64,000 nt of DNA, from positions 2,305,001-2,369,000 of the forward strand of contig NZ_AP013294.1 of the NCBI RefSeq assembly GCF_000829195.1. The letters run 5' to 3'. Shown here in pieces: positions 8,568 through 28,556 of this stretch (positions are counted from its first letter, which is position 1; each line of letters starts with the position of its first letter). Under the pieces are notes generated by a model. The model made no database searches, was not told where the DNA came from, and worked only from the letters and a program-made list of their open reading frames with translations. This stretch comes from Bacillus sp. OxB-1. Its GTDB lineage: Bacteria > Bacillota > Bacilli > Bacillales_A > Planococcaceae. The position numbers and the translations under genes are program-made.

Positions 8568-9356
8568 ATGGTCCAACGAAAACTGTTCAAAGCATTTGTG
8601 GAGCTGACCGGACGTCCGCTCTCCTCTTCCATATTGAAAACTTTCACCCGTTCAAGTATAAGCCGCCCGCTCATCCAGCCGTTCTCCCGCTATTTTGAAG
8701 TTAACGAGAAAGAAATGGAACGGCCTCTCAATACGTACGATTCGCTGAATTCTTTCTTTACGCGAAATTTGAAAGAGGGCAGTAGGGTGATCGATCCTTC
8801 GCCGGATACGTTAGTTTCCCCTGTCGACGGCATCGTAAATGGAATGGGCACTGTCAATGAAGATCAGGAGTTCTATATTAAAGGTCAGCCGTATCAGCTA
8901 GCCGATATTTTCGGAAGCCGGCAAAAGGCGGGTCGCTATGCTGGCGGGTTTTTCTACATCCTTTATTTGTCGCCCAGCCATTATCATCATTTCCATTACC
9001 CGGTCGATGGCGACATCATTTCCCGCTATGCACTCGGCAATGTGTCCTATCCGGTGAATGAGCTCGGTCTTCAGTTGGGAGATCGACCGTTTGCGACGAA
9101 CTACCGGCTCATTTCCGAAATGGAAACGAATTACGGCAATCTGGCAATCGTGAAAGTCGGCGCATTGAATGTCAACAGCGTCCAAATTCGGAATGCTTCC
9201 AAAGTTGCCGTGAAAGGGGAAGAGTTCGGCCATTTCTCTTTCGGTTCGACGGTCATTTTATTTCTGGAACCGCGTTCTGATTTCCAACCGCTCATCGAGG
9301 ATAGGGCGGATGTAAAAGTAGGCCAACCGATTGGCCGTTGGATGCCAAAGGCTTAA
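8568..9356 (+). CDS. psd: Phosphatidylserine decarboxylase proenzyme
   Basis: Psd decarboxylates phosphatidylserine to phosphatidylethanolamine. The proenzyme cleaves itself at a Gly-Ser pair to make a pyruvoyl cofactor; here the site is FGST in HFSFGSTVILFLEP near residue 225. The other triad members are the Asp of SPVDGIVNG (near residue 88) and the His of LSPSHYHHFHYP (near residue 145). The 262-residue length fits the short Bacillus-type form. It has its own start region shared with pssA and ends 180 bp before a terminator hairpin later split by an insertion sequence. Confidence 0.95.
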   Translation: MVQRKLFKAFVELTGRPLSSSILKTFTRSSISRPLIQPFSRYFEVNEKEMERPLNTYDSLNSFFTRNLKEGSRVIDPSPDTLVSPVDGIVNGMGTVNEDQEFYIKGQPYQLADIFGSRQKAGRYAGGFFYILYLSPSHYHHFHYPVDGDIISRYALGNVSYPVNELGLQLGDRPFATNYRLISEMETNYGNLAIVKVGALNVNSVQIRNASKVAVKGEEFGHFSFGSTVILFLEPRSDFQPLIEDRADVKVGQPIGRWMPKA

Positions 9357-9535: not shown

Positions 9536-9548
9536 AAGAAACCCACTT

Positions 9549-9556
9549 GCATCGAC
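9549..9556. repeat. Target site duplication, left copy (GCATCGAC)
   Basis: Identical to 11409-11416 on the other side of the IS. Confidence 0.9.
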
Positions 9557-9600
9557 GAGGCCACTGAAAAAGTCCACTTAAGAGGTCTTATGCTATAACT

Positions 9601-9727
9601 GTTGATTTCCGTTCCGAGCGGACGCTTTCCGTGGGGCGGGCGGTGAGCCTCCTCGTCGCTTCGCTCCTGCGGGGTCTCACCTGTCCCGCTAATCCCACAG
9701 GAGTCGCCGCTCTGCACTCCAATCAAC
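9601..9727 (+). repeat. Family A intergenic repeat, copy 1 (inside the IS)
   Basis: 127 bp with ends GTTGATT/AATCAAC and inner inverted pair GAGCGG/CCGCTC. It shares the core CTCCTGCGGGGTCT and GGAGTCGCCG with copies at 11951, 16660, 28024 and 28287. Confidence 0.85.
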
Positions 9728-9750
9728 GGGACTCACCCGCATATAAAGTA

Positions 9751-9798
9751 AAAAAACAGCGATCCAATTCCTTTCATCGAGGAATGGATCGCCGTTTT
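9751..9798 (+). terminator. Terminator within the IS, upstream of transposase
   Basis: AAAACAGCGATCCAATTCC pairs with GGAATGGATCGCCGTTTT (one bulge), with a T-run. It probably shields the transposase from outside transcription. Confidence 0.75.
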
Positions 9799-9838
9799 TA
9801 TTGTATAATCAACCTATTAAATCCAGGTGGTGTCCCTG

Positions 9839-11299
9839 ATGATCTCCAATCAAGAATCTCTGAACCTCAGTCCATATATGGCAATTTACGATATCGTCGT
9901 CCCAAAGGATAATATGCTTCGTCAAATAAACGAACTTGTTGATTTCACCTTCATTCTAGAAGAGTTGAGAAGTAAATATTGCTTGGATAATGGCCGCAAC
10001 GCGGTGCCTCCGATTCGCATGTTTAAATATCTGCTGCTGAAGTCAATCTTCGACTTATCAGATGTTGATGTAGTTGAACGTTCGAAATATGACATGTCCT
10101 TTAAGTATTTCTTGGACATGGCTCCGGAAGATCCCGTCATCAATCCAAGTTCATTAACGAAATGCCGTAAATTGCGTCTTCAAGATGCAGGTTTAGTAGA
10201 CATGCTTATTGATAAAACAGTTGAGATCGCACTGGAAGAAAATCTGATCAAAAGTAAAACCATCATCGTGGACGCGACGCATACAAAATCTCGATACAAC
10301 CAAAAGTCACCCAAGGAATTTTTAATGGAGAAATCCAAAAATGTACGAAAAGCGGTCTATCAAATCGATGAGTCCATGAAAGAGAAATTCCCGCCTAAAA
10401 CCACTTCTAACGAAGTGACAGATGAAATTGCCTACTGTCGGAAGGTCATCTCCGTCGTTGAAGGCGAAGTTCACATTGCCCGAATTCCAGCTGTCCAGGA
10501 AAAATTAAATGTGTTAAAAGAAGTAGTCGAAGATTATACAGAACAGCTTAATTACTCAACAGATCCAGACGCACGTGTCGGTCATAAAACGGCTGACTCC
10601 TCTTTCTTCGGCTATAAAACACATATCGCAATGAGCGATGAGCGACTCATTACCGCCGCAATTGTGACGACTGGTGAAAAAAGCGACGGTAAATATCTAC
10701 AAGAATTGATTGAAAAAAGCCAAAAAACGGGTATGGAGATTGAAACGGTAATCGGAGATACCGCTTATTCGGAAAAAGATAATATCCTCTACACAAAAGA
10801 AAATGAGCTTGAATTGATATCGAAATTAAATCCCCAAATTACACATGGTGGCCGCACGAAAGAAGATGAATTTGAATTTAATAAGGATGCCGGAATGTAT
10901 GTGTGTAAAGCTGGTCATTTGGCTATTCGCAAAGCGCGGACAGGCAAGAAAAACCAAGGAAAGAACCAAAAGCACACTTACTATTTTGACATTGAAAAAT
11001 GTAAGGTATGTCCCCTCCGCGAGGGCTGTTATAAAGAGGGTGCCAAGAGTAAAACGTATTCCATCTCGATAAAATCGACAGAACACAAGGAGCAGGAAGC
11101 GTTTCAAAATAGCGATGGGTTTAAGATGAAAGCCAAATCCCGCTATAAGATCGAAGCGAAGAATAGTGAATTAAAACAAAGACACGGGTACGATGTAGCC
11201 ACATCCACGGGTCTATTTGGCATGCAGATGCAGGGAGCCATGACCATTTTCGCTGTTAATCTCAAACGAATCATAACCTTAATGAAAGAAGCAAAGTAA
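9839..11299 (+). CDS. IS1182-family transposase
   Basis: A 486-residue DDE transposase. The ATG at 9839 is preferred over the GTG at 9827 because AGGTGG lies 8 bases before it. The N-terminal DUF772-type region (PPIRMFKYLLLKSIFDLSD) is followed by the catalytic part with IIVDATHTKS (first Asp, near residue 145), VIGDTAYSEKDN (second Asp) and the C-terminal SRYKIEAKNSELKQRHG (Glu). A zinc-like CKVCPLREGC lies between. The gene is intact, without stops or frameshifts, so the element may be active. Confidence 0.95.
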   Translation: MISNQESLNLSPYMAIYDIVVPKDNMLRQINELVDFTFILEELRSKYCLDNGRNAVPPIRMFKYLLLKSIFDLSDVDVVERSKYDMSFKYFLDMAPEDPVINPSSLTKCRKLRLQDAGLVDMLIDKTVEIALEENLIKSKTIIVDATHTKSRYNQKSPKEFLMEKSKNVRKAVYQIDESMKEKFPPKTTSNEVTDEIAYCRKVISVVEGEVHIARIPAVQEKLNVLKEVVEDYTEQLNYSTDPDARVGHKTADSSFFGYKTHIAMSDERLITAAIVTTGEKSDGKYLQELIEKSQKTGMEIETVIGDTAYSEKDNILYTKENELELISKLNPQITHGGRTKEDEFEFNKDAGMYVCKAGHLAIRKARTGKKNQGKNQKHTYYFDIEKCKVCPLREGCYKEGAKSKTYSISIKSTEHKEQEAFQNSDGFKMKAKSRYKIEAKNSELKQRHGYDVATSTGLFGMQMQGAMTIFAVNLKRIITLMKEAK

Positions 11300-11311
11300 G
11301 AAAAACCAAAG

Positions 11312-11358
11312 AAAAAGACACCATTTCGTTCGAAAAAATGAACGAGATGGTGTCTTTT
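11312..11358 (+). terminator. Terminator within the IS, downstream of transposase
   Basis: AAAAAGACACCAT pairs with ATGGTGTCTTTTT, with a further TCGTTC/GAACGA stem inside. Confidence 0.9.
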
Positions 11359-11408
11359 TAGATTTCGGGGTACCTTGCAAATTAAAAAGTGAGTTTTTCA
11401 GTGGCCTC

Positions 11409-11416
11409 GCATCGAC
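11409..11416. repeat. Target site duplication, right copy (GCATCGAC)
   Basis: Identical to 9549-9556; contains the original hairpin loop plus one base of each arm. Confidence 0.9.
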
Positions 11417-11429
11417 AAGTGGGTTTCTT

Positions 11430-11834
11430 TTATTTCATAACAACGGCTTCTCCTTCGAGGACGAGTTCATCCCGTTGGTTTTTGACAATGGTCCGGAGCC
11501 GGATGATCCGCTTGGAATCTTTCTTTTCCAGAACTTCCACTTCTGCCGTAACCGTATCGCCGATTTTCACCGGAGCCAGAAACGCCAGATTTTGGGATAG
11601 GTAGATCGTATCCTTGCCCGGAAGCTGCATCGCCAACACATTGGAAATGAATCCGGCTGTCAGGATTCCATGGGCGATGCGCTCTTTGAACACTGATTTC
11701 TTGGCGTATTCGGCATCGACATGGATCGGGTTGAAATCGCCAGTCACCCCGGCAAACTGATAGACGTCATACTCTGAAACGGTTTTTGTGAAACTGGCTC
11801 GATCGCCAATTCTGATTTCATCATACGTAGGCAA
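11430..11834 (-). CDS. phaJ: MaoC-like (R)-specific enoyl-CoA hydratase (PhaJ)
   Basis: PhaJ hydrates trans-2-enoyl-CoA to (R)-3-hydroxyacyl-CoA and so links beta-oxidation to PHA synthesis. The 134-residue single hot-dog-fold protein has the active-site block TGDFNPIHVD near residue 31, holding the catalytic Asp and His, followed by RIAHGILTAG. The neighbouring pha genes on both strands favour the PhaJ role over other MaoC hydratases. Its stop codon abuts the terminator hairpin that an IS has split, so its transcripts may now be ended by IS sequence instead. The assignment of substrate is inference. Confidence 0.88.
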   Translation of the reverse strand: MPTYDEIRIGDRASFTKTVSEYDVYQFAGVTGDFNPIHVDAEYAKKSVFKERIAHGILTAGFISNVLAMQLPGKDTIYLSQNLAFLAPVKIGDTVTAEVEVLEKKDSKRIIRLRTIVKNQRDELVLEGEAVVMK

Positions 11835-11950: not shown

Positions 11951-12076
11951 GTTGCTTTCCGTTCCAGGCGGACGCTTTCCGCGGGCATGGCTTCAGCCTC
12001 CTCGTCGCTTACGCTCCTGCGGGGTCTTCAGCTCATGCTCTTCCCGCTGGAGTCGCCGCCTTCCACTCCAAGCAAC
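11951..12076 (+). repeat. Family A intergenic repeat, copy 2
   Basis: 126 bp with ends GTTGCTT/AAGCAAC and inner pair AGGCGG/CCGCCT. Compared with copy 1 the variable base differs at both ends together. Confidence 0.85.
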
Positions 12077-16659: not shown

Positions 16660-16816
16660 GTTGATTGGAGTGCAGAGCGGCGACTCCGGCGAAGGCCGTC
16701 ACGTAGAACGGCCTTTGTGCCAAAAAGCGTAGCGTTTGGCAACAAATCGAACCCTTCGCTGTTCGATTGGCTGAAGCCGTGCCCGCGGAAAGCGTCCGCT
16801 CGGAACGGAAATCAAC
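16660..16816 (-). repeat. Family A intergenic repeat, copy 3
   Basis: 157 bp in the reverse orientation, ends GTTGATT/AATCAAC, inner pair GAGCGG/CCGCTC. The middle carries two extra hairpins (GCCAAAAAGCGTAGCGTTTGGC region and AATCGAACC...GTTCGATT) also present in copy 4. Confidence 0.85.
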
Positions 16817-16912
16817 GGTTAGAAGAAGTTATGTATTTCAACTTATATAGAAACAGAGAAGGGTAGACTTCCCATGCAGGGGAGGTCAGTGGAATTGTGG
16901 AGGAGGAGAACA

Positions 16913-28023: not shown

Positions 28024-28556
28024 GTTACTTGGAGTGGAAGGCGGCGACTCCTGCTGGGTGAAGCGCGAATGGTGAGACCCCGCAGGAAAAGCGGTTACGG
28101 AGAACGGCTTTTGCGCCAAAAAGCAAAGCGTTTGGCAGCAGCCTTCGTTCCCGTAAAACATGTAGTTGGGAAATGTAGGATGCCTTAATTTCTGCAAAGT
28201 GCGCAGAAATACGGCAAATCGAACCCTTCGCTGTTCGATTGGCTCACCCGCGCCCCGCGGAAACTTTTAGTGAAATAGTAGCACCTGTTGCTTGGAGTGC
28301 AGGCGCCGACTCCTGCGGGAATAGCATGAGCCTTGAGACCCCGCAGGGCGCATGCCTTTCGCGACCGAGGAGGCTCAAGCCATGCCCGCGGAAAGAGAGC
28401 GCCGGAACGGAAAGCAACAGATTGACAGCAGTCATCTCTTTATTTCATTCTGAACTGAAAATAATGTAGATTAACACTTGACTACAGGTAAGAAAGCGTC
28501 CGCCTGCTCCTGTCGCTACGCTTTCGTCGCAAACGAAATTTGGAACGGAAAGTAAC
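28024..28556 (-). repeat. Family A repeat, copy 4 (interrupted)
   Basis: Ends GTTACTT (28024) and AAGTAAC (28550-28556) match each other uniquely among the copies. The repeat is interrupted after GCCCCGCGGAAA near 28262 and resumes at AAAGCGTCCGCCT near 28492; a complete copy (28287-28418) lies inside the interruption. Confidence 0.75.
28287..28418 (-). repeat. Family A repeat, copy 5 (nested)
   Basis: 132 bp with ends GTTGCTT/AAGCAAC and inner pair GGCGCC/GGCGCC-like, complete and lying within copy 4. Confidence 0.85.

Follow-up and report, generated by a model that had tools for sequence, protein, structure and literature searches.

Introduction

The insertion sequences (IS) most closely comparable with the element described here are IS1272 and TnSha1/TnSha2 of staphylococci, members of the IS1182 family that use hairpins without a common sequence as targets (PMC4923244, PMC5678879). 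The accessible parts of these reports indicate that the target hairpins A to E are terminators according to RNA-seq (PMC4923244), that gene-proximal IS1272 copies are located just downstream of genes (PMC5678879), and that the stem-loop is removed wholly or partly upon IS1272 insertion, with no duplication being formed (PMC5678879, PMC4923244). In Figure 13 of PMC5678879, this deletion corresponds to pathway a, which is IS1272's own, and pathways b and c are drawn as alternative routes. In pathway c, which is hypothetical, the joins would lie on the 5′ sides of two loops and only the loops would be duplicated; we found no example for it in the accessible text of that paper. For the IS1182 family as a whole, ISfinder lists direct repeats with lengths between 2 and 60 bp (quoted in PMC7335449), and some family members target palindromic sequences (Siguier et al., cited in PMC5678879 and PMC4923244).

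The present study deals with a stretch of 64,000 nucleotides from Bacillus sp. OxB-1 (hereafter the window), in which an IS1182-family element splits a terminator-like hairpin. Extragenic palindromes are also the insertion sites of IS1397, ISKpn1, and IS621, which are REP or palindromic-unit elements. These elements carry transposases of other families and depend on particular repeat sequences, not on any hairpin. The window element resembles them in its palindrome targeting and differs from them in its transposase family and in that their targets are sequence-bound.

Structure of the insertion site and of the element

The IS (1852 bp, positions 9557..11408, plus strand) is located between two convergent genes, psd, which encodes a phosphatidylserine decarboxylase (8568..9356, plus strand), and a phaJ-like gene for a MaoC-like dehydratase (11430..11834, minus strand). 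It is bordered by two copies of the 8-bp duplication GCATCGAC (9549..9556 and 11409..11416). Overlapping these copies by one base are the left arm AAGAAACCCACTTG (9536..9549) and the right arm CAAGTGGGTTTCTT (11416..11429) of the split hairpin, which belongs to the phaJ-like gene. When the flanks were rejoined in silico, we obtained AAGAAACCCACTTG-CATCGA-CAAGTGGGTTTCTT, which forms 14 perfect pairs around a 6-nt loop. Thus, excision of the IS restores the perfect hairpin exactly as claimed in the initial annotation. The statement made there that the duplication comprises the loop and a single base of either arm was also borne out by the rejoined flanks, since GCATCGAC consists of CATCGA and one base from each arm. 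In the IS-free window, the rejoined hairpin was the only perfect one with a 14-bp arm and a loop of 3-8 nt, and a chance insertion at its exact centre would have odds of roughly one in the number of window positions. T-rich tails lie beyond the split hairpin on both strands. On one side the hairpin adjoins the stop codon of the phaJ-like gene, and on the opposite side psd ends at 9356. In its form, it corresponds to a two-way terminator for the convergent genes.

The terminal inverted repeats of the IS, GAGGCCACTGAAAAA at the left end (15 bp, 9557..9571, plus strand) and its counterpart at the right end (11394..11408, minus strand), match at 15 of 15 bp. The transposase gene (9827..11299, plus strand) encodes 490 aa. 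Its product scored 374.4 bits against the IS1182-family model NF033551 (curated cut-off 270, residues 12-485), which places it in this family. Seven residues (D149, D246, D287, D311, R439, E443, K450) were invariant across all 20 aligned transposases and represent a candidate catalytic set. The last three form the motif R439-x3-E443-x6-K450, in line with the R-x3-E-x6-K pattern around the last E that accompanies the DDE catalytic residues in IS1182-family transposases. Among solved structures, none was related to the transposase by sequence, and an Rfam search gave three matches, none of them close to the gathering score.

The IS itself is predicted to carry two hairpins with A and T tracts, one upstream of the transposase gene (9752..9799, -24.6 kcal/mol) and one downstream of it (11312..11359, -29.9 kcal/mol). 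Both are terminator-like on either strand. A terminator consensus scan flagged neither of them, perhaps because it counted as stem the T runs, which pair with the A runs. In the related copies analyzed below, the stretch behind the transposase gene contained a fold of -15 kcal/mol or lower together with a T run in 109 of 117 cases, a figure that stands without a null. IS lengths cluster in two classes of about 1.69 and 1.86 kb.

The left end of the IS also contains a copy of a dispersed repeat (9601..9727, plus strand). Further copies of this repeat are found in the window at 11951-12076, 16660-16821, 28029-28420 and elsewhere, and 38 of the 51 genome matches fall on the repeat part. Some IS copies in other genomes are placed, by eye, within hairpins of this dispersed repeat.

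Empty sites and further copies

In a relative of the same genus (G051), the window site is unoccupied, and 654 of 684 aligned positions (96%) are identical. There, a single GCATCGAC is present and the hairpin is intact, and these data indicate that the insertion added the IS plus 8 bp and removed nothing. The initial annotation had predicted that an IS-free relative should carry the hairpin, and G051 agrees with this prediction.

Besides the window copy, the genome harbours two full copies, one copy truncated at an end, and one with an internal deletion. For L031 (repeat CCTAATTA), G051 has an empty site that is identical through a hairpin with T tail. L034 sits between the arms of a hairpin that is intact in G051 and has no exact repeat. 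At L032 (repeat ATCCAACA), the hairpin is imperfect and the counterpart in G051 has diverged. The internally deleted copy is L034 (C1:1119437-1122350); it measures about 0.9 kb, has kept both ends, and is possibly MITE-like. L033 (C1:1632328-1635598) is a copy without second end. A phage search with the 257-bp left flank gave no match, and plasmid searches yielded nothing bearing on the argument.

Related copies were collected by a scan of named genomes (the best 80 of 296 loci), to which genus and family searches and further fetched copies were added. All named sources were Bacillota, except for one record titled Pseudomonas (L048). Only the terminal repeats were used for placing the IS ends, and the end motif was well conserved. 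Of 180 loci with a transposase, 31 were left out (20 in which the two ends were not both present and 11 located at contig ends). From the remaining 149 loci with both ends and flanks, 32 rows repeating insertions already counted were dropped, which gave 117 non-redundant copies. Here, we found an exact repeat of at least 6 bp in 100 copies, and its length was 8 bp in 52, 9 bp in 43, and 10 bp in three cases, with single repeats of 7 and 6 bp. No exact repeat was present in 17 of the 117 copies. Among 13 repeat-less copies inspected, seven have a repeat within one mismatch if a one-base shift is allowed. For one pair of copies (L224 and L227 of G203), the left-side repeat of one was found on the right of the other and vice versa, so that the flanks look swapped, which probably reflects recombination between two copies. 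Three copies of a related element (L204, L205, and L206 of G118) have 10-bp repeats instead of 8-9 bp and are located, by eye, inside the dispersed repeat.

Hairpins at the insertion sites

At the 100 sites with an exact repeat, a hairpin score of at least 8 at the repeat centre was reached in 44 cases. The same score was attained by 2.1% of 29702 sites with mispaired flanks, by 0.3% of 96292 flank positions, and by 0.8% of 13327 positions located 5-120 bp past gene ends. Even over the mispaired flanks, which are the strictest of these nulls, the excess is about twentyfold. With half-base precision, the best dyad axis coincided with the repeat centre at 41 of the 100 sites and at 34 of 57 sites with a strong hairpin. 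These data support the proposal of the initial annotation that a hairpin-forming palindrome rather than a fixed sequence is the target. For the set as a whole, they also run counter to a random placement of other copies in non-palindromic sites, which had been named there as a refutation. The preference for hairpins is strong and not absolute, as 24 of the 100 sites have no good hairpin, with all scores below 5 up to a distance of 3 bp from the repeat centre. Three of these 24 (L061, L062, and L226) fold as imperfect hairpins around the repeat, and others look plain.

RNAfold, used as a second view, gave a similar but weaker separation. A hairpin of at least nine pairs at the centre was predicted for 73 of 100 sites, compared with 46.5% of mispaired and 25.8% of random flanks. 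With at least 10 pairs and an energy of -10 kcal/mol or lower, these values were 65 of 100, 21.7%, and 7.0%. We assigned these predictions second rank because left flanks, being A-rich, and right flanks, being T-rich, also fold with each other in mispaired combinations (the 46.5%).

Genes were largely avoided, as had also been suggested initially: 14 of 97 insertions in the long-flank set were inside an ORF of at least 100 aa, compared with 71% of random positions. Purifying selection would fit this distribution if the element inserted at random and only the insertions after genes survived. However, a centred strong hairpin at 0.8% of the post-gene positions stands against 44 of the 100 sites, and the centring of the repeat speaks against random insertion as well. 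We therefore give chance combined with selection practically no credence.

The mean composition of the sites follows the order A tract, C-rich arm, repeat, G-rich arm, and T tract, which is the outline of a two-way intrinsic terminator. Strong hairpins were flanked by A/T tracts on both sides in 36 of 51 cases and on at least one side in 50 of 51. The 74 sites that are located outside ORFs and have a gene end in reach lie at a median of 61.5 bp beyond the stop codon. Both observations would be expected if paused polymerase, R-loops, or local supercoiling at terminators opened the DNA for the element. By itself, such an opening does not account for a repeat that is centred on the dyad with half-base precision. 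Moreover, four copies (L061, L062, L070, and L226) are located in hairpins without A and T tracts, which by eye are copies of the dispersed repeat. We regard an attraction of the element by transcription ending as improbable.

Geometry of target cleavage

For 34 strong and exactly centred hairpins, the effective loops varied between 3 and 13 nt, and the repeat remained constant at 8 or 9 bp (one case of 6 bp). Correspondingly, the repeat included three stem pairs at a 3-nt loop, two at 4 nt (one in the 6-bp case), two at 5 nt, one at 6 or 7 nt, and none at 8 or 9 nt. The cut positions thus lie 4-4.5 nt to each side of the dyad independently of the loop size, so that it is the distance from the dyad that sets the cut. 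In the window, where the loop has 6 nt, the repeat consequently comprises the loop and one base of each arm. The initial annotation had placed both nicks at the border between arm and loop. This description suits loops of about 6-9 nt, including that in the window, and fails as a general rule. We rejected the border as the cutting rule, since repeats of 8-9 bp accompany loops of 3-13 nt.

The repeat is symmetric about the dyad: among 44 strong sites whose axis deviates by no more than half a base, 34 showed exact centring (p = 0.0002). The choice between 8 and 9 bp maintains this symmetry, and a version of the test based on RNAfold loops was weaker (36 of 58, p = 0.04). A table relating even loops to 8 bp and odd loops to 9 bp is true by construction, as its sites were selected at offset 0, and was not counted as evidence.

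Centring and the switch between 8 and 9 bp could also be explained on duplex DNA. Two transposase subunits would each bind a half-site made up of an A tract and a C-rich arm and would cut at a fixed distance without any extrusion. Indeed, the sites show a clear average half-site, in which A prevails between -13 and -8 and C between -7 and -2, and G and T form the mirror image on the right side. However, mispaired flanks of the same composition rarely reached a score of 8 (the 2.1% given above), which argues that complementarity of the arms matters, although such complementarity could come along with natural terminators. In addition, the arm sequences vary widely, and L061, L062, L070, and L226 use hairpins that lack the A and T tracts.

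A sister branch that duplicates whole hairpins

A survey of multi-copy IS1182-family elements in other genomes of the same phylum covered 15 groups with 55 copies. Four groups had repeats of hairpin length, one (G493) had a 4-bp repeat, and 10 had no consistent repeat. Of the 14 copies in the four groups, 13 had the stem-loop as their repeat (17-35 bp), a count to be read in the light of the survey's choice of boundaries, which favoured long repeats, and of a post hoc fixing of the ends at bases common to the copies. A protein search with one sister element gave 46 loci, of which 17 were non-redundant copies; the remainder were repeated insertions, had no end pair, or were located at contig ends. 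Repeats of 20-35 bp were present in 14 of the 17, and in 12 of these 14 a strong hairpin axis coincided with the repeat centre. When both sources were combined and each insertion was counted once, 20 of 23 copies had repeats of 17-35 bp, and in 18 of the 20 the hairpin axis on the repeat centre scored at least 8. A sister element is also present in the genome of Bacillus sp. OxB-1 (L329/L248, C1:3162100-3166200), and a complete stem-loop makes up its 24-bp repeat. Direct repeats in the IS1182 family vary in length, and some members have palindromic targets; both traits were found here, with repeats of mostly 8-9 bp in the window branch and of 17-35 bp in the sister branch.

In a tree of 38 transposases, one branch separated the 18 loop-type rows (support 85/91, not starred) and was present in 80% of the bootstrap trees. 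The loop-type label refers to the branch and the length of the repeat, and a good hairpin is missing from the sampled sites of L139, L204, L221, and L228. Another branch separated the eight whole-hairpin rows (support 98/93), and the tree program warned of long branches. With this reserve, transposase branch and place of the cut go together.

The sister-branch repeats, which track the length of the hairpin, provide the best evidence at the sequence level for a role of folding. Since repeats of 17-35 bp are hard to reconcile with a fixed spacing, recognition of duplex half-sites appears rather unlikely to us as an explanation.

Other branches of the family (18 copies) showed neither a consistent repeat nor a hairpin signal; on average, 4.2 of 10 flank positions were paired, compared with 4.5 in mispaired flanks. 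Deletion of the stem-loop was considered for repeat-less elements (G410, G463, G536, G415, and L330) and was rejected: residual feet were sought in 19 copies, 18 of which were placed, and no signal was obtained. L330 (C1:1803100-1807400), which is found in the genome of Bacillus sp. OxB-1, represents a third IS1182-family type without repeat and is bordered by AAAA and TTTT; its flank gave no match in G051.

Discussion

The feature seen in the window is real and exact, and it holds for most of its branch. Comparison of sequences has established the site, its empty counterpart, the centring of the repeat, the lack of a fixed target sequence, and the 8-9 bp rule. Taken together, the data make it highly probable that this DDE transposase of the IS1182 family selects hairpin-forming palindromes, mostly of the terminator type, by their self-complementarity and cuts about 4-4.5 nt off the dyad.

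Mechanistically, we suggest that the transposase would bind an extruded hairpin or cruciform and that each strand would be cut according to its place in its own hairpin. Joining of the IS would then take place on both strands at a distance of about 4-4.5 nt from the dyad, which corresponds to the loop or the uppermost few stem pairs, and gap repair would create a direct repeat of 8 or 9 bp centred on the loop. The joining point would be fixed for each branch, near the loop for that of the window element and at the stem foot for the sister. Hence, we infer from the sequence patterns that the target was folded when cut. On balance, we lean towards the more general idea that the folded hairpin and not a fixed stagger dictates the target cut, and that each branch has its own landmark, which would be the loop, the stem foot, or, for IS1272, the opposite foot. 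As for the consequences at the locus, the two terminator-like hairpins of the IS would replace the split one and render the insertion nearly harmless, and it is plausible that they stand in for the lost terminator.

Hairpin targeting as such is already known in the IS1182 family from IS1272, and the loop-duplicating branch is a new form of it as far as the accessible reports go. The window element shares with IS1272 its family and the use of hairpins without a common sequence. Unlike IS1272, its branch loses nothing and duplicates the loop, as documented by the empty site in G051. The prediction of pathway c, as drawn in the accessible part of PMC5678879, fits this branch, with 100 exact-repeat sites of which 44 have a strong centred hairpin. 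Pathway b, in which the whole stem-loop is duplicated, corresponds to the sister branch. Accessible descriptions of the IS1182 family also mention variable repeats and palindromes; in them we found no link between repeat length and position in the hairpin, which here is the loop or the whole hairpin, depending on the branch. In the literature accessible to us, we came across neither a rule of loop-only duplication nor a repeat type that follows the transposase branch, and prior notice of either may exist in ISfinder/TnPedia or in subscription papers.

With these data, a single hairpin insertion has become a rule tested on 100 natural cases, which fits an undemonstrated arm of a published model. 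Branch-specific cutting offers an explanation for the wide spread of direct-repeat lengths in the IS1182 family. If the target is indeed cut as a folded hairpin, the length of the direct repeat would be a read-out of target structure, terminators would constitute a structural safe harbour, and two cutting modes would coexist in one genome. Moreover, if the transposase takes the cut positions from extruded hairpins, maps of fresh insertions would reveal where DNA is folded in the living cell, and insertion directed to terminators would offer a natural means of adding DNA behind genes that remain unbroken.
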